Positions 4,002 to 43,913 of a DNA stretch of 43,913 nt are shown here, in pieces; the stretch's first letter is position 1, and each line of letters begins with the position of its first letter. The DNA lies in the NCBI GenBank assembly GCA_017461445.1, contig JAFTXW010000031.1, positions 1 to 43,913 of the forward strand, given 5' to 3'. The position numbers and the translations under genes were made by a program. Source of the stretch: Oscillospiraceae bacterium (GTDB lineage: Bacteria; Bacillota; Clostridia; Oscillospirales; Oscillospiraceae). The notes beneath the pieces are model-generated. The model was not told where the DNA came from and made no database searches. It saw only the letters and a list, made by a program, of their open reading frames with translations.

Positions 4002-4024
4002 TACCTTAAGGAAGGAGGGGTACC

Positions 4025-7682: not shown

Positions 7683-7699
7683 AAGAAAGAGGAAGTATT

Positions 7700-10320: not shown

Positions 10321-10332
10321 TTTCTGAAACCG

Positions 10333-10367: not shown

Positions 10368-10383
10368 ACGAAGGAGTATTACA

Positions 10384-10653: not shown

Positions 10654-10662
10654 GGTAGTACC

Positions 10663-12021: not shown

Positions 12022-12026
12022 CAGCA

Positions 12027-12056
12027 AAAGCACCGGACGGTCTCGTCCGGTGCTTT
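12027..12056. terminator. Bidirectional hairpin terminator
   Basis: A perfect 13-bp stem (AAAGCACCGGACG / CGTCCGGTGCTTT) with a 4-base loop lies between two converging genes. The T-tracts are short (CTTTT on the minus side), so it probably serves both transcripts. Confidence 0.8.
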
Positions 12057-12061
12057 GAACA

Positions 12062-12259: not shown

Positions 12260-12274
12260 GGGAGACTCCTTTCC

Positions 12275-13492: not shown

Positions 13493-13496
13493 TTCT

Positions 13497-15254: not shown

Positions 15255-15269
15255 ATTGGTTTCCTCCTG

Positions 15270-15812
15270 TCAGCGGATGACGATCTGCTTTGCGATCCGG
15301 TCCGCTTCGTCCTTGCCCTTCAGGGCTTCGATCAGTGCCAGGCCGAAGGGAATGGCGCAGCCGGCAGAGGTGCCGGTGATCAGCTTTCCATCCCGCACCG
15401 CGGCGGCGTTCTCCATCATGTTCGCACTGCCCATCTGTCCCTCACAGCCGGGGAAGCAGGTGGCGTTTCTCCCGTCTGTGATGCCAAGGTCTGCCAGCAC
15501 TGTGGGTCCTGCGCAGATGGCGGCAACGAATTTGCCATTGTCCCAGGCATAGCGCAGGGCGTGCAGGGCTTCTTTGCTTGCCCGGGCAGAGGCTACACCG
15601 CCAAGACCGCCGGGGAGAATGATCATCTCCATAGCGTCCAGTTCCATTTCCTCCGGCAGAATATCAGCCACAATGCCGATGTTATGGCTGCCGTAAACGG
15701 TCTTGCCCGTTACGCCAACGGTAGCGACCTCTACGCCTGCCCGGCGCAGAAGGTCCAGGGGAGCGATGGCTTCGGTTTCTTCAAAGCCCGTACCAAGTAA
15801 CATGTAAACCAT
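15270..15812 (-). CDS. DJ-1/PfpI family protein
   Basis: This 180-residue protein has the DJ-1/ThiJ/PfpI fold signatures: FEETEAIAPLDLLRRAGVEV with the conserved Glu, MIILPGGLGG, and the nucleophile elbow AAICAGPTVLA with its Cys at about 99. DJ-1 relatives act as deglycases, glyoxalases, chaperones or oxidative-stress sensors, and the substrate cannot be told from sequence. It starts three bases after the tmk stop, with GGAGGAC as ribosome binding site. Confidence 0.9.
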   Translation of the reverse strand: MVYMLLGTGFEETEAIAPLDLLRRAGVEVATVGVTGKTVYGSHNIGIVADILPEEMELDAMEMIILPGGLGGVASARASKEALHALRYAWDNGKFVAAICAGPTVLADLGITDGRNATCFPGCEGQMGSANMMENAAAVRDGKLITGTSAGCAIPFGLALIEALKGKDEADRIAKQIVIR

Positions 15813-15815
15813 ATA

Positions 15816-16484
15816 TTAGTCCTCCAGGCATGCCGCCACATGGCGGTAGATTTCTTCGTGAATATCTTCAATGGAACGCATTTCGCCGTCCTTTACGCAC
15901 TGGATCACCGTCCAGCCATAGTATTCGGCGGCAGTTTTTCCTGTCCGGCGGCAGGTGGCAAGGTATTCCATATCCTGCTCGTGGATGTCGGCGTGGGTGT
16001 TCGTATCCTGCTCCCGGCGGCGCATCATCTTTTCCGTGAAGTCCGTGGGGACATCCAGATAGATGGTCAGGTCGGGGCGGGGAAGGCCCAGCTTGTCGTA
16101 TTCAAAGTCGTAGAGCCAGTGCAGGAAAGCCTGCTGCTTCTCCCCGGTCTCCTTGCTGGCCTGATGCACTGCGTTGGAGGTGGTGTAGCGGTCGGAGACC
16201 ACCAGACCGCCCTGCTCATACCACTGCCCCCACACCTTTTTGTAGGAGGCGTAGCGGTCCACAGCGTAGAAGGCAGATGCGGCGTAGGCGTTCACGTCGG
16301 TGGGCTTGCTGCCAAATTCGCCACCCAAGTACATGCGGATCAGCGCGGAGCTGGGCTCGGCGTACTGGGGAAATACCAGCTTCTGAAATGTATGGTTTTC
16401 GTTTTCCAGCCGCTGTGTCAGCAGCCGGAACTGGGTGGACTTGCCGGAGCCGTCCGTACCCTCAATTACGATAAGTTTACCCAT
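15816..16484 (-). CDS. tmk: Thymidylate kinase
   Basis: This 222-residue dTMP kinase makes dTDP for DNA synthesis. It shows the P-loop IEGTDGSGKST (8-18), the DR(Y) motif VVSDRYTTSNAVHQ (about 95-108), LDVPTDFTEKMM (about 143-154) and a short lid with RRREQDTNTHADIHE. It is a little longer than average. The ATG at 16484 follows GAGGAGGACAC. It is the first gene of a five-gene minus-strand operon with a clear promoter at 16527-16555. Confidence 0.94.
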   Translation of the reverse strand: MGKLIVIEGTDGSGKSTQFRLLTQRLENENHTFQKLVFPQYAEPSSALIRMYLGGEFGSKPTDVNAYAASAFYAVDRYASYKKVWGQWYEQGGLVVSDRYTTSNAVHQASKETGEKQQAFLHWLYDFEYDKLGLPRPDLTIYLDVPTDFTEKMMRRREQDTNTHADIHEQDMEYLATCRRTGKTAAEYYGWTVIQCVKDGEMRSIEDIHEEIYRHVAACLED

Positions 16485-16526
16485 TTGTGTCCTCCTCTAT
16501 AGTATGGACATATTATCATAACCTAC

Positions 16527-16555
16527 AATATATCATAAATGGGCCGGTTTGTCCA
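16527..16555 (-). promoter_or_regulatory. Promoter of the tmk operon
   Basis: On the minus strand, TGGACA (16550-16555) and TATATT (16527-16532) are separated by 17 bp. It directs transcription of tmk, DJ-1, mltG, U32 and the small membrane protein. Confidence 0.8.
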
Positions 16556-16610
16556 CCATGGGAAGGCAGGGGATTTCTTAATTTTCTGCAAACTTCCATC
16601 AGAAAATTTG

Positions 16611-16639
16611 TTGAAAAAGGGATAGAAAGATGCTACAAT
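16611..16639 (+). promoter_or_regulatory. Promoter of the DEAD-box helicase gene
   Basis: TTGAAA (16611-16616), 17 bp, TACAAT (16634-16639). Initiation near 16646 gives a short leader before the ATG at 16679. Confidence 0.8.
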
Positions 16640-16678
16640 ATCATGACGAATTATGTACAGATAAAGGAATTATGAAAT

Positions 16679-17860
16679 ATGGACATTACGTTTGAAAGTC
16701 TCGGCCTCAGCGAGGCTATGCTGAAGGCCTTGGAGAAGAAGGGCTACGGTTATCCCACCACCATCCAGGCGGAGGCCATTCCCCATTTTATGCAGTGGAA
16801 GGACGTCATTGCCAAGGCCCCCACCGGCACCGGCAAGACCTTTGCCTTTGGCATTCCCATGATCGAGCATATCGACCCGGAAAATGCGTCTGTTCAGGGC
16901 CTGATCCTGGCCCCTACCCGGGAGCTGGCCATCCAGATCGGTGACGAGCTGCGGGGTCTGCTGACTTATTTCCAGGGCATCCGTGTGGCGGTGCTCTATG
17001 GCGGCGCGGGCATCGGCGGACAGATCAAGCAGCTGGAGCGGAAGCCCCAAATCGTGGTGGCGACCCCCGGACGGCTCATGGATCACTATAACCGCAAGAC
17101 CATCCGCCTGGACAAGATCCAGACCGTTGTCCTGGACGAGGCGGACCGGATGCTGGACATGGGCTTCTTCAAGGACGTGACCCGGATCATTGAGAAGGTG
17201 AAAAACCGGAAGAATCTGGGCCTGTTTTCTGCCACCATTTCTCAGGAGGTCATGACCGTTTCCTGGATGTACCAGCGGGACGAGGTGGAGATCACTGTGG
17301 AGCCCAAGCAGGAGGACCGCCCCGATATCGACCAGTACAGCCTGAACTGCACCCCCCTGGAAAAGGCGGAGACCACCCTGCGGCTGATCCGCAGCCAGGG
17401 CTATGAGCGGGTGATGATCTTCTGCAATACCAAGCATATGTGCCAGCGGCTCACCGACGAGTTTCAGCGGGCGGGCCTGGACTGCGACTGCATCCACGGC
17501 GATATCCGCCAGAGCCAGCGGGAAAAGACCATGCAGCGGTACCGGGACGGTAAGCTTGCCATCCTGGTGGCTACGGACGTGGCTTCCCGTGGTATCGACG
17601 TAGACGATGTGGACTGCGTCATCAATTACGATATTCCTGAGGAAAACGAATACTATGTCCACCGCATCGGCCGTACCGGCCGTGCCAAGCGGAAGGGTGT
17701 GGCTTGGAGCATGGTCAGCAACTTCCCGGAAAAGGCCAAGCTGGACGAAATCTGCAAATTCTGCAATTTTGCCATCCGGCCCATGGTTCTGGGTGCCGAC
17801 GGCAGTCTGACGGAGGAAGTGGTCAAGACCCCCGCGCCTCCCAAGAGGAGATTCCGTTGA
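16679..17860 (+). CDS. DEAD-box ATP-dependent RNA helicase
   Basis: This 393-residue helicase core has all family motifs: Q-motif region YPTTIQAEAI, motif I APTGTGKT (about 48-55), PTRELA, TPGRLMD, DEAD box VLDEADRMLDMG (about 151-162), SAT, and in domain 2 VATDVASRGIDVDDVD and HRIGRTGR. Such proteins remodel RNA in ribosome assembly, cold adaptation or mRNA decay. There is only a short basic tail (PPKRRFR) and no DbpA/CsdA C-terminal domain. The ATG follows AAAGGAA. Its stop overlaps the TTG of the next gene. Confidence 0.93.
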   Translation: MDITFESLGLSEAMLKALEKKGYGYPTTIQAEAIPHFMQWKDVIAKAPTGTGKTFAFGIPMIEHIDPENASVQGLILAPTRELAIQIGDELRGLLTYFQGIRVAVLYGGAGIGGQIKQLERKPQIVVATPGRLMDHYNRKTIRLDKIQTVVLDEADRMLDMGFFKDVTRIIEKVKNRKNLGLFSATISQEVMTVSWMYQRDEVEITVEPKQEDRPDIDQYSLNCTPLEKAETTLRLIRSQGYERVMIFCNTKHMCQRLTDEFQRAGLDCDCIHGDIRQSQREKTMQRYRDGKLAILVATDVASRGIDVDDVDCVINYDIPEENEYYVHRIGRTGRAKRKGVAWSMVSNFPEKAKLDEICKFCNFAIRPMVLGADGSLTEEVVKTPAPPKRRFR

Positions 17861-18750
17861 ATCCCCGGGAAAAGGGCTTCCTGCTGCTGACGAGCCACCT
17901 GGGAGACCCGGAGCGAAAGCCTTTGACCACTGCCCAGCTGCGCACCCTGACAGACCGGGTGCGTAATGCGGATATCCCCGATGGTGACCGGAAGCTTCAC
18001 GCCGGAGACCTGGTATCTCTGGGCTACAGCCGGGAAATGGCCCGGCGGATCGTAGAACTGCTGGAAGAGGAGGATGTGCTGGAACACTACCTCCAGCGGG
18101 GAGCCCGATTGGGCTGCGTGCCCATCACCCGGGTCAACCCGGAATATCCCTTGATCCTGCGGCAGCGGCTGGGGCTGGACAGCCCCGGATGCCTGTGGGT
18201 CAAGGGAGATTTGGCACTTCTGAACACTCCCGCTATCGCGCTGGTGGGAAGCCGGGAATTGCGGGAGGAGAACCGGGATTTTGCCGCCGAGGTGGGCCGT
18301 CAGGCGGCAATACAGGGCCTGACGCTGGTTTCCGGCAATGCCCGGGGTTCGGACCGCACGGCCCAGAATGCCTGTCTGGCATCGGGCGGACGGGTCATCA
18401 GTGTGGTTGCCGATGAATTGGCAAAGCAGCCCCTGCGGGAAAACGTGCTGTATGTCAGCGAGGAGGACTTCGACGAGCCCTTTTCCGCCATCCGTGCCCT
18501 CAGCCGCAACCGAGTGATCCACGCTCTGGGGCGGATGGTGTTCGTTGCTCAGTCCGATCTGGGGAAGGGCGGCACCTGGGACGGGACGGTGAAAAACCTC
18601 CGCTTCGGCTGGAGCCCTGTAGCCTGCTGCCGGGATGGAAGCGAAGCAAGTTTCCAATTGGAGCAGATGGGTGCGTATCTGATCGAACAGGAGGATATCC
18701 GGGACTTCGGCTCCCTCCTGCAGAAAGAAACCACATTGTTTGACCGGTGA
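17857..18750 (+). CDS. DprA/Smf-like Rossmann-fold protein
   Basis: This 297-residue protein is read from a TTG that overlaps the helicase stop (TTGA) and is preceded by GAGGAG. An N-terminal helical part (about 1-90) is followed by the DprA-type Rossmann domain: PLILRQRLG...LWVKGDL, IALVGSRE (about 128-135), LVSGNARGSDRTAQNACLASGGRVISV (about 154-180) and RNRVIHALGRMVFVAQSD. Canonical DprA has SGLA.GID at the second site; here it is SGNARGSD, and the C-terminal winged helix is absent. True DprA loads RecA on single-stranded DNA in transformation. This divergent form may be a nucleotide- or ssDNA-binding relative with another role. The terminator stem begins inside its last codons. Confidence 0.75.
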   Translation: MNPREKGFLLLTSHLGDPERKPLTTAQLRTLTDRVRNADIPDGDRKLHAGDLVSLGYSREMARRIVELLEEEDVLEHYLQRGARLGCVPITRVNPEYPLILRQRLGLDSPGCLWVKGDLALLNTPAIALVGSRELREENRDFAAEVGRQAAIQGLTLVSGNARGSDRTAQNACLASGGRVISVVADELAKQPLRENVLYVSEEDFDEPFSAIRALSRNRVIHALGRMVFVAQSDLGKGGTWDGTVKNLRFGWSPVACCRDGSEASFQLEQMGAYLIEQEDIRDFGSLLQKETTLFDR

Positions 18751-31506: not shown

Positions 31507-33747
31507 TTATTCGCTGTCACGGTGTTCCCAGCTGAGAACGGCATCCTTTAAGCCTTCCAGATCCAGAACGCCGTAGGCGAAGCCTTTTTTGACCAGCTCC
31601 TCGGGGAGGTATTCGTCGTATTTGTCGAACAGGGGCAGTTCCTTGGGGTAGACCAGCTCCATCGGGTCGATGGGCTTGCGGATCTCCTCGGATACGACCC
31701 GGAAGAAGGTCTCCGCGTCGGTCTTCATGGTGAACTGCATGTAATAGGGCCGGGCGGAATCGAAGTTTTTCAGCCCCAGCCGGTCGGCGCATTTGATCTT
31801 CAGGAACCGCTCCATGGCGAGGAAGGTATACGTTCCCACCCAGGGGAGCAGGCACCACATATTCCCGCCCAGGTTGATCAGCGGCTTTTCTCCCGCGCCG
31901 GAGTGGGAGGCTGTGTACCGGGCCTGTTCCAGCCGGGCTACGGCATTTTTCATCAGGTAGGGATACTGCCTGTCCTCCCGGAGCACCTGCCGCATACGGC
32001 ACAGGATCTTGGTGTGAAGATCGCCGGGGCACTGGCCGAAGTAGGCGGGGATACTGCCCTTCACCTGCTCGCAGTATACCAAGTGCCGCTTGTGATCCAC
32101 GTCCAGTACCTGCCAGACATGGCCCGCGATGGCCAGTTTTTCCCCCACGGGGGGCGGCAGCACCACGGTGCCCAGCTCCTGGGCCTCGCTGCGGACGGTG
32201 TATTCCTCGTTTTCCTGGAACACACCGTAAAATTTGAAGGAGTTGACCACCCGCTCTCCCGCCAGTCCTACGATCAGCCCGCCCTGCTCCGTCTGCTGGA
32301 TGTGGTCGGTCTGGATCAGGTGCCGCAGGAGCACCTTGTAATCCTCCTGGCTGATGCGGTGGAAATAATGCAGCCGCAGCACCCGGTCTGCCAAAGCCCG
32401 GGGAGAAAGCTCCCCGCAGGAGGAGAGGGTGGACATGGTCTGGTGGTATAGCAGGCTGTAGGGGAGCCGATCCAGCCGGGGCGGCTCGCACCACCGTTCT
32501 TCCAGATACAGCTGCACCAGGGCGATGCCCTGCAGCAGCTTCCAGGGGATGGTGGAGGGCAGCATGGCCCGGGCCTCGGGCTCGTCCTCCCGCATGACGA
32601 ACCACATTTCCGGGGGACTTTCCCGCCGCCCGGTGCGGCCCATCCGCTGCAAAAAAGAGGAAACCGTCCAGGGGGCATCGATCTGGAAGGCCCGCTCCAG
32701 ACGGCCGATGTCGATGCCCAGCTCCAGGGTGGCAGTGGTGACGGTGGTCATGTATTGGGAATCGTCCTTCATGATCCCTTCGGCGGTCTCCCGGTAGGAG
32801 GCAGAAAGGTTGCCGTGGTGAATGAGGAAGCGGTCCCGCTCGTGATTGTATTCGCAGTATTGGCGCAAAGTTGTGGTGACAGTCTCACATTCCTCCCGGG
32901 AATTTACGAACACCAGGCACTTTTTGCCCCGGGTGTGCTCGAAAATGTAGCCGATGCCGGGATCGGCGTTTTTTGGCGCATCGTCGGTCTTTTCTTCCAG
33001 AACGGGAAGGGCTTCAATATCTGTCCGGTCTTCAGCTGCCTGGACATCCTTCACATAGAAATGCTCCATGCTCAGCCGCCATTTACTTCCTTTGGCTTCA
33101 ATTTTGGGAATGATGGTCTTCCGCCCGGTACCGAGGGACAGGAACTGGCCCGTACCCTCCGGGTCACCGATGGTGGCGGAAAGGCCGATGCGCCGGGGGT
33201 TTACCCCCGCCAGACGGCTCAGCCGCTCAATCAGGCATAATGTCTGCCCACCCCGGTCACCCCGGAGCAGGGAATGGACTTCGTCAATGACCACAAACCG
33301 CAGGTCGCCGAAAAGCTTCGGAATGGCGGAGTGCTTATGCAGAAGCATAGCTTCCAGAGATTCCGGGGTGATCTGCAAAATGCCGGAGGGGTGCTTCATC
33401 AGCTTGCTTTTGTGGCTCTGTGCCACATCCCCGTGCCAGTGCCATACGGGAATATCCGCCTCGGCGCACAGATCGTTGAGCCGCGTAAATTGGTCATTGA
33501 TCAGGGCTTTCAGGGGGCCAATGTAGATACAGCCCACGGAAGCCGGGGGATCCTCGGAGAACAGGGTGATGATGGGGAAGAAGGCCGCTTCTGTTTTGCC
33601 GGAGGCGGTGGAGGCGGTCAGCAGCACGTTTTCGTCGGTGTTAAAAATGGCATCCGCCGCGGCCACCTGGATGGCCCGAAGATTCTCCCAGCGGTTTCGG
33701 TAGATATAATCCTGTACAAAGGGTGCGTAGCGGTCAAATGCGCTCAT
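31507..33747 (-). CDS. Lhr-like SF2 DEVH-box helicase of the TerB operon
   Basis: This 746-residue superfamily 2 helicase has motif I TASTASGKTEAAFF (about 44-57), the GPLKALINDQ segment, ITPESLEAML, motif II VVIDEVHSLLRGDRGG (DEVH), motif III LSATIGD, the conserved domain-2 motif TTATLELGIDIG, and motif VI QRMGRTGRR. The layout resembles Lhr and the BREX-associated helicase BrxHII. Such enzymes unwind DNA or RNA-DNA hybrids. It is the third gene of the operon, starting 10 bases after the ATPase stop with AAGAGGTAGG as ribosome binding site. There is no HNH or nuclease motif at the C-terminus. Confidence 0.88.
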   Translation of the reverse strand: MSAFDRYAPFVQDYIYRNRWENLRAIQVAAADAIFNTDENVLLTASTASGKTEAAFFPIITLFSEDPPASVGCIYIGPLKALINDQFTRLNDLCAEADIPVWHWHGDVAQSHKSKLMKHPSGILQITPESLEAMLLHKHSAIPKLFGDLRFVVIDEVHSLLRGDRGGQTLCLIERLSRLAGVNPRRIGLSATIGDPEGTGQFLSLGTGRKTIIPKIEAKGSKWRLSMEHFYVKDVQAAEDRTDIEALPVLEEKTDDAPKNADPGIGYIFEHTRGKKCLVFVNSREECETVTTTLRQYCEYNHERDRFLIHHGNLSASYRETAEGIMKDDSQYMTTVTTATLELGIDIGRLERAFQIDAPWTVSSFLQRMGRTGRRESPPEMWFVMREDEPEARAMLPSTIPWKLLQGIALVQLYLEERWCEPPRLDRLPYSLLYHQTMSTLSSCGELSPRALADRVLRLHYFHRISQEDYKVLLRHLIQTDHIQQTEQGGLIVGLAGERVVNSFKFYGVFQENEEYTVRSEAQELGTVVLPPPVGEKLAIAGHVWQVLDVDHKRHLVYCEQVKGSIPAYFGQCPGDLHTKILCRMRQVLREDRQYPYLMKNAVARLEQARYTASHSGAGEKPLINLGGNMWCLLPWVGTYTFLAMERFLKIKCADRLGLKNFDSARPYYMQFTMKTDAETFFRVVSEEIRKPIDPMELVYPKELPLFDKYDEYLPEELVKKGFAYGVLDLEGLKDAVLSWEHRDSE

Positions 33748-33757
33748 AGCCTACCTC

Positions 33758-35071
33758 TTATAAGTCAAATTCCGCAAACTGGGCATCGGTAGCCTCTTCG
33801 ATCACCGCGTTTTGGGCATAGGTGAACTGGTCGGAGCCCAGAAGCGTCCTGACCTTCACCCTGGGATTCTGGTACACGATGTCCAGAACCTCAATGAAGT
33901 CACGGATCACCTCCCGGGGGGTGATGTGGGTATCCGCACCGATGCGGCCAAATTCGATCTCAATGAAATCCACCATATCCTGCTGGGTGACGATCTGTTT
34001 GTACTCATATAGTCCCGCGTGGATGTCAGCCAGCTTTTCAATCAGAATCAGCATTTCCTCGTTGGTCAGGGGCTGAAGCCGGATGACAGGAGAGAGAAGG
34101 TCTTTATGCTCCCCGGAGAAGTGGCCTTCTGCCAGCCGGGAGCGGAGGGCTTCATAGCTGTAAACGCCCCGGCGGGGATCCTCCATGCACTGGGGTGTAC
34201 CGCACAGGATGAAACCCAGGTGCTGGGCCTTGCCCTGCATGGCATCATTGTACATGGTCAGAATTTTTTCGTAGTTATACTGCCGGGTGATGGCGTTGGG
34301 AATCTTATAGATGTTCACCAGCTCGTCAATCAGGATCAGCATACCGGAATAGCCCGCCTGCTTCAGGAAGGCAGCGAAAATTTTCAGATACTCATACCAG
34401 TCGTCGTCCGTAATGACGATATTGGCACCCAGCTCCTGCCGGGCTTCGGTCTTGGTGGCATATTCACCACGGAACCATTTGAGCACTTTGGCCTTCGTCT
34501 CGTCATCGCCGGAGATATGTGCCTTATAGTAGAGGGTCAAAAGCCTGGCAAAGTCAAAGCCGTGCACCATTTCATTGAGGGAATAGATCACAGCAGAAAT
34601 TTTCTTCTCCACCAGCGGAGCAAGGCCGGGATCGGTAATGCCGAGACCGGAGGCGGTCATGACCTCCTGCTGTATATTGCTGATCCACCGGTCCAGGATC
34701 AGGGACAGGGCACCGCCCTCGGGCTTGGTCTTGGTGGACATGTTGCGGATCAGTTCCTTATAGGTGGCCAGTCCCTGGCCCCGGGTGCCCTGGAGCCGCC
34801 GCTCCGGGGAAAGGTCGGCATCCACCACGACAAAATTCTTCGCCATCACATAATTGCGGATGGTCTGCAGCAGGAAGCTCTTGCCGCTGCCGTATTTGCC
34901 CACGATGAAGCGGAAGGACGCACCGCCGTCGGCAATGATCTCCACATCGTGCAGGAGCGCGTCAATTTCCGCTTTCCGTCCCACGGTAGTGTACTGCAGT
35001 CCCACCCGGGGCACAACGCCGCCTTTCAGGGAATTGATCAGGGTCTGGGCGATTCTTCTTGGAATTTTCAT
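33758..35071 (-). CDS. BrxC/BrxD-like (DUF2791) P-loop ATPase
   Basis: This 437-residue AAA/ORC-like ATPase has Walker A GKYGSGKS (58-65), a typical DUF2791/BrxD opening (RRIAQTLINSLKGGVVPRVG), and Walker B GMLILIDELVNIYK at about 242-255. A sensor-like ILCGTPQCMEDPRRGVYSYEALRSRL follows. The C-terminal part contains TPREVIRDFIEVLDI, probably a winged helix. BrxD homologues are ATPases of phage-defence BREX systems, but no other BREX gene is visible here. Its start overlaps the TerB-family stop by four bases (ATGA), which means tight stoichiometric coupling. Confidence 0.88.
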   Translation of the reverse strand: MKIPRRIAQTLINSLKGGVVPRVGLQYTTVGRKAEIDALLHDVEIIADGGASFRFIVGKYGSGKSFLLQTIRNYVMAKNFVVVDADLSPERRLQGTRGQGLATYKELIRNMSTKTKPEGGALSLILDRWISNIQQEVMTASGLGITDPGLAPLVEKKISAVIYSLNEMVHGFDFARLLTLYYKAHISGDDETKAKVLKWFRGEYATKTEARQELGANIVITDDDWYEYLKIFAAFLKQAGYSGMLILIDELVNIYKIPNAITRQYNYEKILTMYNDAMQGKAQHLGFILCGTPQCMEDPRRGVYSYEALRSRLAEGHFSGEHKDLLSPVIRLQPLTNEEMLILIEKLADIHAGLYEYKQIVTQQDMVDFIEIEFGRIGADTHITPREVIRDFIEVLDIVYQNPRVKVRTLLGSDQFTYAQNAVIEEATDAQFAEFDL

Positions 35072-36540
35072 GGGTGTACCATCTCTTTCAAATCATCGAT
35101 ATAGTCCTCCACCAGCTCCGGGGTGTCGTCCAGAACCGAGTCCAGGAACATATCATACAGTTTATCATTGATGCTGTCCGATAAAACGGACAGCATGTAG
35201 CCTTCCGTGTGTACCCAGCTGTAATCTCTGCCGTAAAGCAAACATTGGAGCAGACGGTATTCCGCCGGGGCCAGGGGAGTATCCCCGCCGGTGTCAGCGG
35301 GTGGCTCCGGGAGGACGGGCGGGGTCTCTTCCGGCGTTTCCTCTTCCAGCTCTTCGTCCACAGTCAGCTTCTCCCGGGTGATAGCCGCGTCCTGCCGGAT
35401 CTTTTCCAGTTGGGAATAGTCAATGGTGATCTTCTTTGCTTCGGCGGCTTTTTTCTTCGCTTCGGCGGCCCTTTTCTCCGTCAGGAGGGCCTGTGTCTCA
35501 TCCCGGATGATCTTAACGATCCACTTTGTATCCATTTCCCATTTGATGGGGTGGCCATAGCGGAATTCTTCCCGCATGATGGCATCGATGGTTTTCAGCA
35601 AATCTCCCAGCTTTTGACTGGAACGCTGGGGAACATGCCGCCGAACCGTCCAGAGACCGTTTTTGCAGCGGTAGACGCACCGCTCATCCAGGGCATATTC
35701 GCAGTTTCGCTTTTTCAGCGGATCGCAGAAGACGGCGGTTTCGAACAGCCGTACCTGGAATTCGGCGGGCTTTCCGAAATACTGCTCCACCATGGTCTTT
35801 TTGCAGCGGGCGGCGTAGTGGTCAGAGATGCGCCGAAAGACGCTTACGATGACCCGGTCCATATCCTCCCGGTGCTGGGAATAGAATTTTGACCGCTCCA
35901 GCCACTTCGGGGATAGCTGTTTTATGGCGTAAATGATCTTGGCTGGCTCCTGGTTCTGGATATGGTCCAGAACGGTGATGCTGCGGTCATAGACTACCTG
36001 GGGCATATCAGCCAGCAGGTTCGCATCCAGGCCATAGTATACCACAAAATCCTTCAGCCAGCTTTCCAGATAAATGAGGATGCGCGGGTCAATTTTACCA
36101 TAATCATCCCGGAACTGCGTCAGCTTTTGATAGCCTTCTGCGGCATCCGAAACACCTGCCAGGTTGATCAGCTCGTAGATATAGAGAAAGGCGAAGGACA
36201 GGGAAGCTTTCTGCAGCTGGCCCCGGCGGAGCTTGGTACGCCAGGAGAAGTAGCCGCGAAGCTCCTGATCCGTAAAGGACTGGTAGGTGGGATAATAGCG
36301 CACAAGCTCTCCCGGCAGGGGATAATCGTCCTCATAGCTTGCAAGGAGCTTTGCCTGCTTTAGAAAAATGGATTCCCGGGCCTGCCAGTACCGCTCTGGA
36401 CTGTTTTCCAGGGAGCGGGCGGCACGGAGCAGGGAGGGGGTCTTCTCCGCCGGACGTGCGGCCTGGGGACGGATGGCTTCGTCCTTGAACACATTGCCAT
36501 AGAACCACTCGGCGGCTTTTTTCATTCTGTTGGTATCCAC
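35068..36540 (-). CDS. TerB-N / TerB-C domain protein
   Basis: This 490-residue protein has a TerB-N domain at about 50-200, recognised by YYPTYQSFTDQELRGYFSWRTKLRRGQ and FLYIYELINLAG. A middle part has paired cysteines (FCDPLKKRNCEYALDERCVYRC). A charged coiled coil (LLTEKRAAEAKKKAAEAKK) and a Pro/Glu linker follow. The TerB-C-type C-terminus reads YRLLQCLLYGRDYSWVHTEGYM. TerB domains bind divalent metal and act as scaffolds at membranes. The start is the GTG at 36540 after AGAGGAA, with an ATG at 36525 as alternative. It is the first gene of the ATPase–helicase operon. Confidence 0.83.
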   Translation of the reverse strand: MDTNRMKKAAEWFYGNVFKDEAIRPQAARPAEKTPSLLRAARSLENSPERYWQARESIFLKQAKLLASYEDDYPLPGELVRYYPTYQSFTDQELRGYFSWRTKLRRGQLQKASLSFAFLYIYELINLAGVSDAAEGYQKLTQFRDDYGKIDPRILIYLESWLKDFVVYYGLDANLLADMPQVVYDRSITVLDHIQNQEPAKIIYAIKQLSPKWLERSKFYSQHREDMDRVIVSVFRRISDHYAARCKKTMVEQYFGKPAEFQVRLFETAVFCDPLKKRNCEYALDERCVYRCKNGLWTVRRHVPQRSSQKLGDLLKTIDAIMREEFRYGHPIKWEMDTKWIVKIIRDETQALLTEKRAAEAKKKAAEAKKITIDYSQLEKIRQDAAITREKLTVDEELEEETPEETPPVLPEPPADTGGDTPLAPAEYRLLQCLLYGRDYSWVHTEGYMLSVLSDSINDKLYDMFLDSVLDDTPELVEDYIDDLKEMVHP

Positions 36541-36665: not shown

Positions 36666-38246
36666 TTAGATGTTCAGCAGATCGCTGTAGACCTTCAGCG
36701 CACCGTCGGTGTTGTGGGCCAGAACCTTCTTGGCCAGAACCTTGCCCAGCTGGACGCCTTCCTGGTCAAAGCTGTTCAGATTCCATGCAAAGCCCTGGAA
36801 CATGACCTTGTTCTCAAAATGGGCCAGCAGGGCACCCAGAGCCTTGGGGGTCAGCTTTTCGCCGATGATGATGCTGGAGGGACGGCCGCCGGCGAAACGC
36901 TTGTTAGCGTCTTCGTCTTCCTTGCCGCAGGCGAAGGCCACGATCTGAGCGGCCACGTTGGCACACAGCTTCTGCTGGCTGGTGCTGCCCTGGATGACCA
37001 CATCGGAGCCCATCTGGCTGTTCTTGAAGCCCACGAACTGCAGGGGAACGATGTCAGTGCCCTGGTGGAGCAGCTGATAGAAGGAGTGCTGACCATTGGT
37101 GCCGGGCTCGCCGAAAATCACGGGGCCGGTGGCGTAGTTCACGGGCTCACCGAAGCGGTTGACGGACTTGCCGTTGGATTCCATATCCAGCTGCTGCAGG
37201 TGGGCGGGGAAGCGGCTCAGAGCCTGGGAGTAGGGCAGAACAGCGGTGTTCTGATAGCCCAGAACATTGCGCTCGTAAACGCCGATCAGGGCATCCAGCA
37301 TGGCAGGGTTCTGCAGCAGATCCTCATTCTTAGACAGGGCATCAGCCTCGGCTGCGCCGTCCAGGAACTGGGCAAAGACCTCGGGGCCAAAGGCCAGGGA
37401 CAGCACCGCGCCGCCTACGCCGGAGGTGGAGGAGTAACGGCCGCCGATGTAGTCGTCCATGAAGAAGGCTGCCAGATAGTCGGAGCTCTTGGCCAGGGGG
37501 GAGGTCTCGCTGGTAACGGCAATCATGTGCTTGGAGGCATCCAGACCTGCCTTTGCCAGAGCGTCCTTCACGAAGGATTCGTTGGTCAGAGTTTCCAGGG
37601 TAGTACCGGACTTGGAGACCAGAACGAAAATGGAGTGCTCCACATCGATCTTGCTCAGAACCCCGGCGGCATCGTCGGGGTCAACGTTGCTGATAAATTC
37701 GGCCTTCATCTTCAGTGTACCGTTGACCTTGGCCCAGTTCTCCAGAGCCAGATACATGGCCCGGGGGCCCAGGTCGGAGCCGCCGATGCCGATCTGCACG
37801 ACAGTGGTGAACTTCTCGCCTGCGGCGTTGGTGATCTCACCGGAGTGGACCTTGTTGGCCAGCTCAGCGATCTTCTTCTGCTCGCCAACGTAGAAATCCC
37901 GCTTGTCAACGCCGTCAGCCACAACGGCCTCGCCCAGCTGGCCGCGGCACATATGGTGCAGAACGCGCCGCTTCTCGCCTGTGTTGATGACCTCGCCGTT
38001 GTACAGGGCGGCGAACTTTTCGGTCAGCTGTGCTTCCTCGGCGAACTTTGCCAGGACAGCCAGAATGCCGTCGTCAACGGGTCTTGCGCCGTAGTTGAAA
38101 GCAAGGCCTTCGCCCATGGGAACGCTGTACTTCTTCACGCGCTCCGCGCCGTTCTCGCCGGACATGGCGGCGGCCAAATCCACGCGCTCAGCAGCCAGAA
38201 GCTCCTGATAAGCAGCCAGAGTGTCCAAGTTTTTCCAAGTAATCAT
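36666..38246 (-). CDS. pgi: Glucose-6-phosphate isomerase
   Basis: This 526-residue enzyme interconverts glucose-6-phosphate and fructose-6-phosphate in glycolysis. Motifs seen are IGIGGSDLGPRAMYLAL (about 152-168), SKSGTTLETLTNE (about 210-222), GGRYSSTSGVGG (about 268-279, containing the sugar-phosphate-binding segment) and GTNGQHSFYQLLHQGTD (about 384-400) with the catalytic Glu/His. It is of the longer PGI type rather than the ~450-residue Bacillus type. The ATG follows AGGAGGATTTCC. It has its own promoter and terminator. Confidence 0.95.
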   Translation of the reverse strand: MITWKNLDTLAAYQELLAAERVDLAAAMSGENGAERVKKYSVPMGEGLAFNYGARPVDDGILAVLAKFAEEAQLTEKFAALYNGEVINTGEKRRVLHHMCRGQLGEAVVADGVDKRDFYVGEQKKIAELANKVHSGEITNAAGEKFTTVVQIGIGGSDLGPRAMYLALENWAKVNGTLKMKAEFISNVDPDDAAGVLSKIDVEHSIFVLVSKSGTTLETLTNESFVKDALAKAGLDASKHMIAVTSETSPLAKSSDYLAAFFMDDYIGGRYSSTSGVGGAVLSLAFGPEVFAQFLDGAAEADALSKNEDLLQNPAMLDALIGVYERNVLGYQNTAVLPYSQALSRFPAHLQQLDMESNGKSVNRFGEPVNYATGPVIFGEPGTNGQHSFYQLLHQGTDIVPLQFVGFKNSQMGSDVVIQGSTSQQKLCANVAAQIVAFACGKEDEDANKRFAGGRPSSIIIGEKLTPKALGALLAHFENKVMFQGFAWNLNSFDQEGVQLGKVLAKKVLAHNTDGALKVYSDLLNI

Positions 38247-38330: not shown

Positions 38331-38905
38331 GCATATCTGAAGAACAGTTGCGTTATTTTTCACAAACATTTTTCGTATTTCCTTCTATTTAATGCGGCAG
38401 AAGCAGAAAAACGGCAAATTTTCCTTAAAAACCTGCCGCAAAAGTATGAAACGTAGAAAAAGGCGTGAAGCGCGGATCAGCACGCTGTATTGCTCGTGAA
38501 TAGCAGGAAACGTTCCAGCTCTGCCGTATAGGCAAGCATTTCATGGGTATTCTTCTGGCGAATGGCTTTCCTGGACCGCCTGATGACCTTGTCAAAAATC
38601 CGGATCAGCCTGCGGTAGAAAATCCTTGTGCATGCCGCTTTTTCGCCGAAAAAGGATTGTCTTTCTGCGATCATCCTATTTTGGGTATAAAAAGGCACCC
38701 AGTAATATCTATCACCGGATAGCGCATTGGCATTGATTTCTACGAAGGGTAATTTATACTGATTCTTAATTAAAACCTTAAATTCGCAAGAATTGAAGGT
38801 TTTGATATGAGAATCATATGTGACGGGATTTTGCTATTTTCTTTCCGAAAATAGCAAAATCGGCAAAGTAGTATTAGGACAAATTGCATCAAACAAGGAC
38901 AGAAG
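38331..38905. other. AT-rich stretch without a confident gene
   Basis: This is the gap between pgi and the rpsI scar terminator. Base composition is clearly more AT-rich than the surrounding genes. It holds an 8-bp inverted repeat (TGCGGCAG 38393-38400 / CTGCCGCA 38433-38440) without a T tail, and the possible minus-strand remnant frame at 38477-38698. No RNA gene was recognised. Confidence 0.6.
38477..38698 (-). pseudogene. Possible remnant reading frame, unknown
   Basis: A minus-strand frame of 73 codons runs from a GTG, but protein-like sequence continues upstream in the same frame to about 38808 without an ATG and ends at a TAG there. The composition is basic and aromatic (FYRRLIRIFDKVIRRSRKAIRQ). 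No ribosome binding site precedes the GTG. It is not recognised as a family. It may be the 3' end of a decayed gene left by an older insertion, or chance. Confidence 0.3.
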
Positions 38906-38940
38906 AAAAAGCCCTGAAATCGAGTGATTCCAGGGCTTTT
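38906..38940 (-). terminator. Terminator, probably the native rpsI terminator
   Basis: On the minus strand, a stem AAAAGCCCTGGAATC / GATTTCAGGGCTTTT (one bulge or mismatch) is followed by T residues. It lies about 30 bases after the stop codon of the orphan rpsI tail, as it would after an intact rpsI. Confidence 0.85.
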
Positions 38941-38970
38941 GACAAGTTTCTGTATCGAAAAAATTCGAAA

Positions 38971-39021
38971 TCAATGCTTGCTGAACTGGGGAGCGCGACG
39001 TGCGGCCTTCAGACCGTACTC
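38971..39021 (-). pseudogene. rpsI: Orphan 3' end of rpsI (ribosomal protein S9), probable att site
   Basis: Read on the minus strand, 16 codons give EYGLKAARRAPQFSKH followed by TGA. This matches the invariant C-terminus of ribosomal protein S9 (…YGLKxARRAPQFSKR). Codon choice (GGT, CTG, AAG, CGT, CGC, TTC) is ribosomal-protein-like, unlike the flanks. Upstream codons (IPA and beyond) are not S9-like, so only the tail is present. The simplest reading is an attachment-site duplication left by an integrative element that targets the 3' end of rpsI, with the intact gene beyond the right edge. A truncated relic of a real rpsI is the alternative. Confidence 0.78.
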
Positions 39022-39137
39022 GGCCGGAATTGAAGGGAATTTCCGTTGCAGCGCAACAACTTTTCACATTTTGGATAGGCGATGACCGCTCGATTAACAC
39101 ATAAAATCAGGTGTTTTTTAGCGTAAAATCTGACTTT

Positions 39138-39182
39138 CATCGCTCATTTCGTCCATCAAAACTGGTTGATAAATGAGCGATG
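39138..39182. repeat. Long inverted repeat beside the rpsI scar
   Basis: A perfect 12-bp pair (CATCGCTCATTT at 39138-39149, AAATGAGCGATG at 39171-39182) is extended by an inner ATCAA/TTGAT pair after a 5-base bulge. No T tract follows on either strand, so it is not a standard terminator. It lies 117 bases inside the element from the orphan rpsI tail and could be a recombinase or excisionase binding site (inference). Confidence 0.7.
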
Positions 39183-39224
39183 ACTTGTAGCGGCATCCTG
39201 TAAGATAGAATCATGTATTCTCGA

Positions 39225-40625
39225 TTAGTTATCCAGCTCATCACAGAGCAACAGATCATCTCTGGACTCTGCTAATGCTTTAAGTTCGTCAGTAAAGCCG
39301 GATGCACTGAACAGTACATACCAGATTTTCCGGTTGTCCCGCTCCCATGCTACGGAATCAGACTTTGCTTCCAAATCCCGGAGGACACTTACACCAACAG
39401 GTTCCGCCCAGTATTTACATTCGCCCAAAATCAGATTCTTACCCTCCGGATCGAGGGCAGCAATATCGATCTCATCTTTGGAATCCCAATACCGGCCTAG
39501 CTTTGTAAAATTAAAAGGCCATGCATCGTCTGCGTTCAATTCCCACATCCGTTCCTTGCATACATCCTCATACACAAAAGCAATGTGATTTCTTACAAGG
39601 CTTTTCTTGATTTTGTTCATGACAATGCGGCTGTGTCCGCTTTCGATGAAGCTCATATTGGGGTAGACAAAAGCAAACCAGAACCGCAGATAATTGTCCT
39701 TGATCTTGTACAGACCTTTTTTGCTCTTTTCCGGGTTCTCCTCCGTAATGGGAACCTCCCGTTCCAGAATGTCAAGATCAATCAGCGTTTTCAGATACTT
39801 GGTCAGACTGGTGGATTTGATCTCCAGAATAGAGGAAATGGCAGACAGCTTACTATTGCCAGCGGCGATTGCCTTGATGATGGAGAAGTAGCTGCCAACT
39901 TCGCTGACTTCCTGCTGCAGCAGGAAGTGGGGCTCATCGTACAGATAGCCGGACCGGTTCAGTACGCACTTCTGAATAGCACTATAAATATCCTTGCTCT
40001 CGGAGAACAGTTCAATGTACTTCGGGACACCACCGGTAACGGAATACATTTCAATCAGTTCTTTCCGGCTTTTATTGGGGAAGAATTCATGGTAATATCC
40101 AAAGGGGATTTGCTTCAACCGGATCTGTGCTGTCCGTCTGCCGTAGAGGGGACTGCCATAGGCCAGCGTCTGGGATTCCATCATGGAGATCAAAGAACCA
40201 CAGAGAATGACCATTACAGACTTGTCTTTCAAAATTTCCTCCCAAATCCTCTGGAAGATGGAGGGGAAGGCAGGATTAGCCTTGCCTAAATACTGAAATT
40301 CGTCCAGCACGATCACGGGCTTGCTCTCAAAGTGAGTGTCCATGATGGACTTAAACAGCACGTCCCAGTTTTTAATGTCAGCGCTCCGCAGTAAGTCACT
40401 ATCGATAAATTCTGCAACCTTTTCCTTAAAGGCGTTCCGGTTCTGTGCTTCTGCTTCCTCGCTTGCAAGGAAGAACAGGGCCTTTTTATCCTTGATGAAC
40501 TCAGAGATCAGCGTAGTTTTACCAACTCTCCGCCGACCATACAGAACAACCAATGCGCTGCCGTCCCGCTCATATTCATTTTGCAGGGTTTCCATCTCCA
40601 ATTCCCGGTCAACAAATTGCTTCAT
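39225..40625 (-). CDS. Archaeal-type ATPase with DUF234 C-terminal nuclease-like domain
   Basis: This 466-residue protein belongs to the 'ATP-binding protein/DUF234' family. The N-terminal AAA-type domain has FVDRELEMETL, Walker A LYGRRRVGKTTL (about 29-40), Walker B PVIVLDEFQYLG (about 104-115) and sensor VILCGSLISMM. A winged helix follows (LSAISSILEIKSTSLTKYLKTL, about 257-278). The DUF234 end carries a PD-(D/E)xK-like set (DEIDIAAL, then ILGECKYW at about 414-421). The family is abundant in gut Firmicutes and Bacteroidetes and often travels on mobile elements; its function is unknown. The ATG follows GTGAGGTG. It is the element gene closest to the rpsI scar. Confidence 0.88.
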   Translation of the reverse strand: MKQFVDRELEMETLQNEYERDGSALVVLYGRRRVGKTTLISEFIKDKKALFFLASEEAEAQNRNAFKEKVAEFIDSDLLRSADIKNWDVLFKSIMDTHFESKPVIVLDEFQYLGKANPAFPSIFQRIWEEILKDKSVMVILCGSLISMMESQTLAYGSPLYGRRTAQIRLKQIPFGYYHEFFPNKSRKELIEMYSVTGGVPKYIELFSESKDIYSAIQKCVLNRSGYLYDEPHFLLQQEVSEVGSYFSIIKAIAAGNSKLSAISSILEIKSTSLTKYLKTLIDLDILEREVPITEENPEKSKKGLYKIKDNYLRFWFAFVYPNMSFIESGHSRIVMNKIKKSLVRNHIAFVYEDVCKERMWELNADDAWPFNFTKLGRYWDSKDEIDIAALDPEGKNLILGECKYWAEPVGVSVLRDLEAKSDSVAWERDNRKIWYVLFSASGFTDELKALAESRDDLLLCDELDN

Positions 40626-40651
40626 AAAAGCACCTCACTTTCTTTAGAATT

Positions 40652-40679
40652 ATTATACTTCAAATTATTATAATTTCAA
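40652..40679 (-). promoter_or_regulatory. Promoter of the DUF234 gene, with repeated motif
   Basis: On the minus strand, TTGAAA (40674-40679), 16 bp, TATAAT (40652-40657). The region is built of two near-identical units (plus strand AATTATTATACTTCAA and AATTATTATAATTTCAA), which may form an autoregulatory site. Confidence 0.65.
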
Positions 40680-40711
40680 GTATAACTTGCGGAATTATGG
40701 GAGATGAAAAG

Positions 40712-41671
40712 TTATCGTTCTTGGGACTTGCTTTTCCGATGGGTAATGGGGATACCCAGCTTTATGCAGAGGTAATCGTTGTAGTCCTTTCCGCAGGGTG
40801 GGGGCTGTACAGAAACCTCATATTTATCAGACAGTATTTCAACCAATGCCTTTGCCATGTATCCGCCAGCTTTATCATTATCCAGGCGCAGGGTGATCCA
40901 TTTGATATTGGGGTACTCCGATAGATACCGTTTCAAGGTAAGGGGCAGAGAACTTTCCTGCAGATTTTCTTTTGGCTTGTAGACGCCTGCCAGAGATACA
41001 AGGTGATCCCGCTGCCAGTTGCCGCCGTTCTGTTTCACCAGAGTGGCAAAGGAAAGAAGGTCGATAGCACTTTCAAACAGGTGCAGACTATCACTGTTCT
41101 GCGCCGGGATGCTGAAAGAAAACCGTTTATCACTTCCGTTGGCTTCACCGATGAAGTCTGTGCCGATACCCCGGAGGGTAGCATACCGGGGCTTGTTGTA
41201 TCGATCCAGACCCACGAATACCACATTGTGATAGGGCAGACTTTCATAGATCCTGCCAGCCTGGAAACAGTAGTCAATCAGCTCCGAATCAATGCCACGG
41301 CTGCGAAGATAGTTATAGGCATGGGTGGCGCAGCGGCTCACCTTGGGCAGTAACAGCACCTTGGGTTTCTTCTCTTTTTCTATCCGGGAAGTTGTGGGAG
41401 GGGTATATGCGGCAACTCCGCTGATTCGTTCCACCGCTTCCACAAAGGGAACATCCTTTACCTTTACAAGATAATCCAAGGCATTATAGCCGCCAAAGCC
41501 ACGGGAGAACCAGTACCATTTACCGTTGGAAATTTTAAGGGAATCATGCTCCCGTGTGCAGTAGTGATTGCCGCCGATATGCACCAGTTCGTCCGGCTCA
41601 AAGGTACGCAGATAGGTCAGTAAATCCATCTGCCTTGCCCGTTCTATGGTTTCGGGTGGAATGAATGGCAT
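40712..41671 (-). CDS. DUF3991/Toprim domain protein of mobile elements
   Basis: This 319-residue protein starts with a degenerate primase-type zinc-ribbon region (HIGGNHYCTREHDSLKI...WYWFSRGFGGYNALDYL). DUF3991 follows (NYLRSRGID...YCFQAGRIYES, about 118-145). The Toprim-like domain is HLFESAIDLLSFATL (the Glu-containing motif, about 196-210) and ITLRLDNDKAGGYMAKAL (the DxD-type motif, about 260-277). Such proteins are typical of conjugative or mobilisable elements of Clostridia, where they lie near relaxase genes and are thought to act in element DNA replication. It starts 8 bases after the DUF3848 gene. Confidence 0.87.
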   Translation of the reverse strand: MPFIPPETIERARQMDLLTYLRTFEPDELVHIGGNHYCTREHDSLKISNGKWYWFSRGFGGYNALDYLVKVKDVPFVEAVERISGVAAYTPPTTSRIEKEKKPKVLLLPKVSRCATHAYNYLRSRGIDSELIDYCFQAGRIYESLPYHNVVFVGLDRYNKPRYATLRGIGTDFIGEANGSDKRFSFSIPAQNSDSLHLFESAIDLLSFATLVKQNGGNWQRDHLVSLAGVYKPKENLQESSLPLTLKRYLSEYPNIKWITLRLDNDKAGGYMAKALVEILSDKYEVSVQPPPCGKDYNDYLCIKLGIPITHRKSKSQER

Positions 41672-41679
41672 ATTGCCGC

Positions 41680-42021
41680 CTACCTTTCTGATCTCTGTGC
41701 TGCGGCAAATTCAGCTCGCAGCACTTCACAAGAACGAGCTTCAACTGCGTTCCAAATTTTTTCTTGCTGTCTGCCATGCTCCCAGCTTGCGTATTTGTTG
41801 TAGACGTCTGCCAATGGAGTGGAGGATTTCAGCAGAGCCTTAGCCCGTGCATTATTCAGATCGTTGTTCTCCATCGCCATCAGAATGTTCTCACGGCAGA
41901 TGTACTCGCTTGCATGATCCAGAATCTGGGCAGGCGGTAAGGTAAGCAGATAAGCCTTGTATTGTTCCTGCTCTGCGTACATCTTCTGATATAACTGGGT
42001 ATTCAGCATTACGTTGGTCAT
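41680..42021 (-). CDS. DUF3848 protein
   Basis: This 113-residue protein matches the DUF3848 pattern: LYQKMYAEQEQYKAYLLTLPPAQILDHA, then YICRENILMAMENNDL and AKALLKSSTPLADVYNKY. The family is found on integrative elements of Clostridia, usually next to DUF3991/Toprim genes exactly as here. Its function is unknown and no TM or signal is seen. AAGGAG lies 8 bases before the ATG. It forms a two-gene unit with the downstream Toprim gene. Confidence 0.82.
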   Translation of the reverse strand: MTNVMLNTQLYQKMYAEQEQYKAYLLTLPPAQILDHASEYICRENILMAMENNDLNNARAKALLKSSTPLADVYNKYASWEHGRQQEKIWNAVEARSCEVLRAEFAAAQRSER

Positions 42022-42041
42022 TTCATCAACTCCTTAAATAG

Positions 42042-42080
42042 AAAAAGCCGACTGATTCCCGCATTGAAAATCAGTCGGCT
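42042..42080 (-). terminator. Terminator of the two-TM membrane protein gene
   Basis: On the minus strand, a 12-bp perfect stem (AGCCGACTGATT / AATCAGTCGGCT) with a 10-base loop is followed by a T run. It lies 16 bases beyond the stop at 42096. Confidence 0.9.
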
Positions 42081-42095
42081 ATGTACATGAATTAT

Positions 42096-42953
42096 TTATT
42101 TTGGAACGTTATAATACTCCATTGTATTTTTATCTCGAGTCAAATCTCTTCTGTGGCATACTGTTATTTGCTTAAATAGAATCATCTGTGCATCATTAGG
42201 AATCGCATTGTAATATGTTGATGGATCGTTGTTATCAACTTTCGATGTATCGTAGATCTGCACATATACATTCTCTGTTCTGTCTTTTAGTATAGCATAA
42301 GCACACGTTCGAGACATTGGGAATACTTTACAAAATGACATCTGAGCAACCAAAACGCTTAATTCTTTGCCAGCATTGACACGTTTATCGAAATCACGTT
42401 CTTGCTGCTTTAAGTTTTCTCTAACAAATGCACGCTGTACGGTGGGATAGATATGAACAGAGTATTTATGTTTATCTTCTTGTACGAGTGTAAGCTGGAT
42501 ATTTCCATCATTAACTTTCTTCCCATCATTCCATGCAAGTAATGTGTTGAAGAAATCTGTTCCTACGCTTTTGTCAGAAAATCTGAACCCAAGAAAGATA
42601 TTAGTATCATCCGTTGCGACATACATACTTGTCCACTTGCTGCCATCCCAGTTTTGGGGTAACGGCTGTACTAGCATTACTGTTCGTGTAAAAATAATCT
42701 GTTCAAAAACTTGTTCAATCAAAAAAAGTACAATGGAAAATGCAAGCGAATAGTACCATACTGGAAATGCAATAAGTGAAGATGCAATGCCAATCACTGT
42801 TATTGTCCGCAAAATCCATTTTACAGCATTTTCGTACGTCTCTCCAATTTTGATATGTGGAACCTTATCTTGTATCACAATATCAAATTTGGAGCGCCAA
42901 TAGTGGACTTTTACTTGAATTCTTCTGAAAAATCTTCGTATTATATTCATCAT
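42096..42953 (-). CDS. Two-TM membrane protein with large soluble domain, unknown
   Basis: This 285-residue protein begins with a basic segment (IRRFFRRIQVKVHYWRSKF). Two adjacent hydrophobic helices (about 47-66 and 68-88) follow, then a soluble C-terminal domain of about 190 residues with no recognised motif. Base composition is markedly more AT-rich than the housekeeping genes, consistent with transfer. GAGG precedes the ATG, which lies 14 bases after the Fic stop, so the two are probably cotranscribed. A 2TM-plus-cytosolic-domain layout is seen in several membrane effectors of defence systems, but no homology can be claimed. Confidence 0.7.
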   Translation of the reverse strand: MMNIIRRFFRRIQVKVHYWRSKFDIVIQDKVPHIKIGETYENAVKWILRTITVIGIASSLIAFPVWYYSLAFSIVLFLIEQVFEQIIFTRTVMLVQPLPQNWDGSKWTSMYVATDDTNIFLGFRFSDKSVGTDFFNTLLAWNDGKKVNDGNIQLTLVQEDKHKYSVHIYPTVQRAFVRENLKQQERDFDKRVNAGKELSVLVAQMSFCKVFPMSRTCAYAILKDRTENVYVQIYDTSKVDNNDPSTYYNAIPNDAQMILFKQITVCHRRDLTRDKNTMEYYNVPK

Positions 42954-42967
42954 CCTCTACCTCTAAA

Positions 42968-43913
42968 TCAAGTTTTAATATATCTTGCGGCTCTGGAAGA
43001 ACCAATCTTCCGAATTGTGCCAGTTTTGACCATGGCACCCAGCACAGCTTCCACGGTGGTGGGGCTGACATCGGGAAGTATTTTGCAAATGTCGGCTTTA
43101 GAAAGTGGAGTCAGGCTGTTAAGGACTGTTGCTTCCACACGAGCCTTCTTTGTGATCTTCTTTCCGTGGACAACCGCAAACCGCTTGTCCAGTTCCTTGT
43201 AGCACATATACAGCATGGATAAGAAGTTCTCCATGAACGGGAAGTAGTCGTTTTCGTTAGTTGCCCATCCTGTGGAGGACTGTTGCAGAGCATCATAATA
43301 GTATACTTTATAGTTGCTGATCTGCTCCTCAAAGGAAACATATTTACCAGCGTCATAACCATTCTTGTATAGAAGAAGCAGCGACAGTAACCGGGACATT
43401 CTGCCATTACCATCCCGGAAAGGATGGATGCAAAGGAAGTCCAGAATAACACAGGGAATCAGTAGAAGCTGATTGATATTGGCGTCGTTGCGTGCTTCCA
43501 TATATGCCAGTTCTAATTGCTCCATAGCTGCCTGAGTTTCGGTTGCAGGAGTGGGCCGGAAACGGATTCGACGGTTGCCCTGAGAATCTTCCTCCAGAAT
43601 ATAGTTATCTGTGAACTTATATTTGCCACCGTATTCATAACCGGTCATAGACATCATAATGTCATGCAGGCGGAGAATATCCGACTGGCGGAAATCAATA
43701 TATTCATGGCCCATGTGGATCTCATTCAGTGCATCTCTGTAACCGGCGATCTCCATTTCGTTATGGTTAAGTGGCGCACTATTCTGATTCACAATTTCAG
43801 CGATACGGGCATCGCTGGTAACAATACCTTCAATGGCATTGGAACTTTTAACAGACTGAATCTTTGCAATGGCTTCTAATTCTGTAAAAACCTTGATGTG
43901 TTCCTCTTTCCGA
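42968..43913 (-). CDS. Fic family protein, N-terminus beyond the window
   Basis: The frame is open to the right edge (315 residues visible); an internal GTG at 43792 is not the start. The class II inhibitory helix is seen as SSNAIEG at about visible residues 23-29 (S-x3-E-G), followed by SDARIAEI. The catalytic Fic loop HPFRDGNGRMSRLL lies at about 43389-43430 with the catalytic His. A C-terminal winged helix is present (LTPLSKADICKILPDVSPTTVEAVLGAMV). Fic enzymes transfer AMP or related groups from a nucleotide to target hydroxyls, and the N-terminal Glu blocks ATP until released. The target is unknown. It lies in the mobile-element segment next to a membrane protein. Confidence 0.9.
   Translation of the reverse strand, partial: RKEEHIKVFTELEAIAKIQSVKSSNAIEGIVTSDARIAEIVNQNSAPLNHNEMEIAGYRDALNEIHMGHEYIDFRQSDILRLHDIMMSMTGYEYGGKYKFTDNYILEEDSQGNRRIRFRPTPATETQAAMEQLELAYMEARNDANINQLLLIPCVILDFLCIHPFRDGNGRMSRLLSLLLLYKNGYDAGKYVSFEEQISNYKVYYYDALQQSSTGWATNENDYFPFMENFLSMLYMCYKELDKRFAVVHGKKITKKARVEATVLNSLTPLSKADICKILPDVSPTTVEAVLGAMVKTGTIRKIGSSRAARYIKT

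Follow-up and report, generated by a model that had tools for sequence, protein, structure and literature searches.

Introduction

The 3' end of rpsI is a known integration target. Streptococcus ICEs that use a tyrosine integrase insert at this position (PMC4701971), and IMESag-rpsI and other Streptococcus IMEs of the same site are described as mobilizable elements of about 9 kb that carry a relaxase, with tandem accretion and decayed elements also reported at these sites (PMC5704250, PMC5357655). For Enterococcus faecium, the esp pathogenicity island is described as having an imperfect repeat of the rpsI 3' end, 54 bp long, on its flanks, and in the same account rpsI is proposed as a hot spot in Gram-positive bacteria (PMC2858755). 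A putative ICE located in rpsI, ICE_RhoA2-183_rpsI, is described for the gut bacterium Roseburia hominis (PMC12904643). The literature found on insertion at rpsI concerns mostly streptococci and enterococci, with this one report from Roseburia, and what is added here is a sample drawn from across a genus and a 7-bp candidate for the core.

The DNA analysed, called the window throughout, has 43,913 nucleotides and is the entire contig C15 of a draft genome (61 contigs, 2.66 Mb, 90.8% complete, 4.3% contamination). It contains a short rpsI 3' end, or orphan tail, that is separated from the rest of the gene. Judged from sequence comparison, this tail is very probably the attR of a tyrosine-integrase element that recombined into the rpsI 3' end.

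The orphan rpsI tail and its terminator

Positions 38971-39020 of the minus strand read AG followed by 15 codons (YGLKAARRAPQFSKH) and a stop, which is the 3' end of rpsI. The minus-strand translation of the region gives ...FPSIPAEYGLKAARRAPQFSKH*, with stops upstream, and contains nothing similar to S9 to the right of 39020, as the original prediction had stated. That prediction counted 16 rpsI codons; the rpsI 3' end is real, but only 15 codons and the bases AG belong to it, given that the glutamate codon in front of them (GAG) is a product of the junction, made of one element base and two rpsI bases. Relatives have a lysine codon (AAG or AAA) at this position of rpsI. The match to the rpsI 3' ends of relatives starts at base 39020 and runs leftward, with 45 consecutive bases of the tail identical in G117.

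The homology continues past the tail through the terminator and into downstream DNA, reaching 38903 in G117 (84% over 119 bp) and 38874 in G003 (79%, E 5e-23), so that 38874-38970 (minus strand) can be assigned to native DNA from downstream of rpsI. The terminator that had been predicted to follow the tail was confirmed as an intrinsic terminator at 38907-38940 (minus strand), with a 15-pair stem and a predicted folding energy of -22.2 kcal/mol (z -6.1; none of 200 shuffled sequences was equally stable). It is homologous to the DNA downstream of rpsI in G117 and G003 and appears to have travelled with the tail. An rpsI 3' end with its own terminator therefore stands at the far side of foreign DNA, and 38971-39020 is annotated as the displaced rpsI 3' end, a putative attR-side scar. 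No Rfam family matched the window at gathering scores. Further to the left, a 114-bp sequence at 38753-38866 folds into a double hairpin (z -8.2) without an Rfam match and occurs in this genome at least 12 times in full or in part, this copy counted (12 of the 30 candidates scored); it is perhaps a small dispersed repeat or a MITE.

Orphan tails in relatives

When 136 genomes of the genus, the own genome included, were searched at the DNA level, 107 gave a match at E 1. The matches listed were taken down to E 1.7e-5, with the weaker ones (E 0.04 and above) left out; the loci analysed also include some from outside the genus, and tails were counted by distinct 90-base sequence with a pattern in which YGLKAARRAPQF was fixed and the last residues were free. 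Among the loci analysed, this gave 76 intact tails, 15 orphan tails (the window included) and 2 tails that have no sequence upstream. Apart from the window, the orphan tails number 14 and come from 13 genomes: G007, G065 (two), G067, G113, G115, G123, G132, G133, G138, G142, G144, G150, and G151. All 14, among the matches listed, break at the same codon position as the window, which shows that the junction in the window is a site used by relatives. They open with AGTACGG in 12 cases and with AATACGG in the remaining two (G142 and G065:C93).

The orphan tails are not all independent: G150 and G151 are identical over 1864 bases beyond the tail, and between G007 and G115 there are 2 differences in 55 bases of this adjoining DNA. 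The two orphan tails of G065 (G065:C1 and G065:C93; loci L185 and L187) each have an integrase pair beside them and possibly represent tandem elements at rpsI. Short copies of the rpsI end were also seen just downstream of intact rpsI, inverted in G033 (L062) and G029 (L067) and direct in G017 (L061).

The tail in the window ends in histidine, while all 76 distinct intact tails and all 14 other orphan tails among the matches listed end in arginine, making it the sole exception among the 15 orphans. The intact tail of G100:C66 also ends in arginine and fell outside the pattern count through one changed residue. Given that intact copies such as this one also show single residue changes, the change from arginine to histidine is only a modest sign of drift.

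Integrases beside the orphan tails

Tyrosine-integrase sequence was found just outside the tail in all 12 orphans with enough adjoining sequence; G115 and G138, with only 55 and 47 bp beyond the tail, stand outside this count. The integrase is full-length in nine cases (G065 twice, G067, G113, G123, G132, G133, G150, and G151), where the open reading frames end 73-232 bp from the junction and the proteins share 49-100% identity with one another. G142 and G144 have a C-terminal piece and G007 has a remnant of 37 residues. All eight integrase sequences submitted matched Pfam Phage_integrase. A second integrase lies directly upstream in G123, G150 and at both tails of G065.

For the window the result was different from that of the 12 assessable relatives. 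None of the 13 integrase queries found a match in it by tblastn (E 0.01), and the 4.9 kb to the right of the tail gave no integrase either by Pfam or by tblastn. The own genome has three integrase matches at E 1e-5, all on other contigs, with 26, 30, and 52% identity (the last over 45 residues).

A candidate crossover core

Intact and orphan copies could be compared within the same genome in seven pairs from six genomes, and AGTACGG is common to both copies in five of them. The identical block at the junction measures 7 bp in G138 and in G007, 8 bp in G123, 8 bp plus 3 on the left in G133, and 16 bp in G065:C1. G142 has 31 bp plus 7 on the left, a 38-bp block that holds AATACGG, and in G065:C93 the block is 1 bp, AGTACGG not being common to this tail and the rpsI of its own genome. 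The overlaps used by tyrosine recombinases are usually about 7 bp. Given this length and the five pairs, AGTACGG, at 39014-39020 (minus strand) and rpsI codons 119-121, is likely the crossover core. Within 50 bases of the tail, 4 to 10 positions are different between the paired copies, in keeping with an element that provides an rpsI 3' end of its own.

Strand exchange would accordingly be placed at or near this 7-bp sequence. The element would have brought a replacement 3' end and so kept the rpsI of this genome whole, while the original last 15 codons, the stop, the terminator and the downstream DNA would have been pushed to the far side of the element. The DNA to the right of 39020 would then be element, and that to the left the old downstream region of rpsI. 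The displaced tail, having no further use, would be free to drift, as its histidine may indicate, and the integrase seen beside the tails of relatives may have been lost from this end or be sited elsewhere.

DNA to the right of the junction

The G+C content is 57% on the left (1-18.7 kb) versus 44% on the right (39022-43913). The element-side arm at the junction (39021-39066, minus strand) has a moderate likeness to the arms of other orphans, at the same spacing: over positions 1-30 of the arm, 248 of the 87734 46-mers of the window score equal or higher, and over the whole 46 bp 1240 of 87734 do. The putative element end at 39021-39224 is non-coding, and no integrase remnant was found in it by tblastn with the 13 integrases at E 0.01. 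When 39021-39230 was searched in the 136 genomes of the genus, the own genome included, the longest other match was 72 bp at E 0.01.

Five genes follow, all on the minus strand. The first, at 39225-40625, has ATPase_2 and DUF234 domains and a PADLOC match to the candidate PDC-S27, and is likely horizontally moved cargo. It is followed by a DUF3991/Toprim protein (40712-41671), assigned by domain match and gene context to a type found in conjugative elements, and by a DUF3848 protein (41680-42021) whose gene adjoins the Toprim gene both here and in conjugative elements. A 285-residue protein (42096-42953) has no Pfam or NCBIfam match at E 0.001, and a Fic protein truncated by the contig end (42968-43912) matches the SoFic model below the NCBIfam cut-off. 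No Pfam match to relaxase, coupling-protein or transfer genes was obtained with the five genes; the three relaxase matches of the own genome are on C22 (two) and C25. A near-perfect palindrome (40645-40688) stands immediately upstream of the ATPase_2/DUF234 gene; blastn picked it up as a match of its own in 18 of 43 homologous loci, the majority of them from Firmicutes, and it is perhaps an operator or a cassette end.

In G150 and a Holdemania genome, the neighbourhood of the DUF3848 and Toprim/DUF3991 genes includes a relaxase and a coupling protein. The Holdemania genome has DUF3848, Toprim and ATPase in the same order as the window, with one extra open reading frame between Toprim and ATPase, and its relaxase and coupling-protein genes come after the ATPase, the relaxase within about 1 kb. 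In the window, the ATPase gene is followed by about 200 bp and then by the rpsI tail. The ATPase shares 93% amino-acid identity with that of the Holdemania genome, and 93% also with that of a Eubacteriales MAG.

This shortened gene order, the identity of the ATPase to proteins from these two genomes and the integrase not found at this end would all fit a variant of the attR reading in which the scar is real and the DNA now at its right is secondary. The integrase element would have lost part of its sequence to deletion, and a piece of a conjugative element carrying the mobile ATPase gene would have come to stand beside the tail. The arm argues the other way, since its likeness to other arms at the same spacing makes the outermost bases look like the original element end, and we give this variant somewhat less than an even chance. 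Under the attR reading itself, the insertion in this genome is probably old and decayed, given the unfound integrase, the shortened gene order and the drift from arginine to histidine. Several points weigh against the attR reading as a whole: the window has no visible integrase when all 12 assessable relatives do, the likeness of the arm is only moderate, G065:C93 and G142 depart from AGTACGG in their paired copies, some of the orphan tails are not independent, the left segment follows few of the tails, and the near-side site and the remainder of the element lie outside the assembly.

DNA to the left of the junction

Parts of the window between 0.4 and 18.7 kb lie downstream of intact rpsI in five relatives, with order and orientation kept (blastn, matches of 300 bp or more, E 1e-15). 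The DNA on the far side of the tail is thus host sequence, found elsewhere after an intact rpsI. The segment begins 16.4 kb after rpsI in G091, 14.5 kb in G117, 8.8 kb in G146, 5.5 kb in G124, and 6.1 kb in G093, and it also follows the orphan tail of G115, starting at +8.6 kb. It was seen with only 6 of 57 tails (the G115 orphan included), and with 4 of the 25 tails that have 10 kb or more downstream; therefore, the arrangement holds for part of the genus only. No second tail was found by pattern downstream of rpsI in G117 (51 kb), G146 (27 kb) or G091 (27 kb).

The original prediction had host chromosome resuming at pgi, directly to the left of the tail. The DNA there is indeed native to the rpsI downstream region, but the pgi gene (36666-38246, minus strand), of the PRK14095 type, is an accessory gene in a variable zone downstream of rpsI, and the conserved host segment, with dnaG, ispH/S1 and dprA homologues, is 1-18700. 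Close copies of pgi were found in 3 of 23 relatives of the same genus (G004, G018, and a partial one in G014). A first set of 20 rpsI loci had neither pgi nor the right-hand genes near rpsI; with wider sampling of loci, pgi appeared near rpsI in G091 (at +4.3 kb), in G117 (inverted, at +2.2 kb) and in G089. A distant second PGI match lies on contig C20 of the own genome. As an extra accessory copy, pgi was ruled out as a marker of housekeeping DNA. G004 and G018 have the same neighbours without the stretch 18.7-36.7 kb between them, pgi adjoining the 18.7 kb end, and for this reason this stretch is read as a second variable block, so that conserved host DNA begins only at about 18.7 kb. Three genes of this block (31507-36540) match Shango SngC, SngB and SngA and form a Shango-type operon.

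The rearranged neighbourhood, with pgi inverted in G117, and the inverted rpsI pieces that adjoin rpsI in G033 and G029 could also speak for a relic of rpsI duplication or rearrangement, broken near the rpsI 3' end with no integrase involved, as could the lack of an integrase match beside the tail of the window. Such a relic is very improbable, given that the break position recurs in 14 further orphan tails, integrase sequence being present beside 12 of these, and that several relatives have the DNA of the left flank downstream of rpsI, which leaves only the right side foreign. The insertion of an element at rpsI, as originally predicted, is instead favored by what is directly observed, namely these shared breaks and integrases, the relatives that carry the left flank and the drop in G+C at the junction; the exact core, the replaced 3' end of the rpsI of this genome and the decay are inferred.

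The rpsI of the genome and the assembly

The rpsI of the genome itself stands where contig C11 ends on the right, cut at codon 94 and preceded by a gene that we take to be rplM. Searches with the Pfam S9 model, DNA and protein found no second rpsI 3' end in the assembly besides the tail of the window; the own 3' end is missing because C11 ends, and the near-side attachment site is out of view for the same reason. Neither this site nor the remainder of the element is present in the assembly.

A false join is likewise very improbable, even in an assembly with this fragmentation and contamination and with two contigs of relatives (G021:C32 and G137:C13) that have one end exactly at the junction base, as expected of an assembly fork there, given that 14 other tails have their junction at this position, that the tail has a drift of its own, and that the element side has no likeness to rpsI and therefore offers no shared stretch for a misjoin.

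Implications and comparison with known systems

If the tail is an attR, the scar sets the start of foreign DNA in the contig. Within the genus, rpsI is a recurrent insertion site, and the likely crossover is narrowed to seven bases. In draft genomes, orphan rpsI tails offer a simple way to recognise such elements, and they may account for some contig breaks at rpsI. A broader scenario, which we regard as rather unlikely, would make the last 15 codons of rpsI, an essential gene, and the terminator a mobile part in the genus, swapped at the 7-bp core by often paired tyrosine integrases and feeding a defence-rich downstream hot spot, with the window as an integrase-less island still movable by sibling integrases.

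The target is the same as that of the Streptococcus rpsI ICEs, of which the tyrosine integrase is a feature. The hosts are different, and the 4.9 kb available in the window is without a visible integrase or conjugation module. Elements of the IMESag-rpsI type share the target as well, and the tandem accretion described for them invites comparison with the two tails of G065; they have a relaxase, while none was seen in the 4.9 kb of the window. The esp island, as described, is alike in its rpsI 3' end repeat and differs in cargo, and its transfer has been demonstrated, whereas the window is known from sequence only. ICE_RhoA2-183_rpsI, going by its published description, shares the rpsI target in another host.
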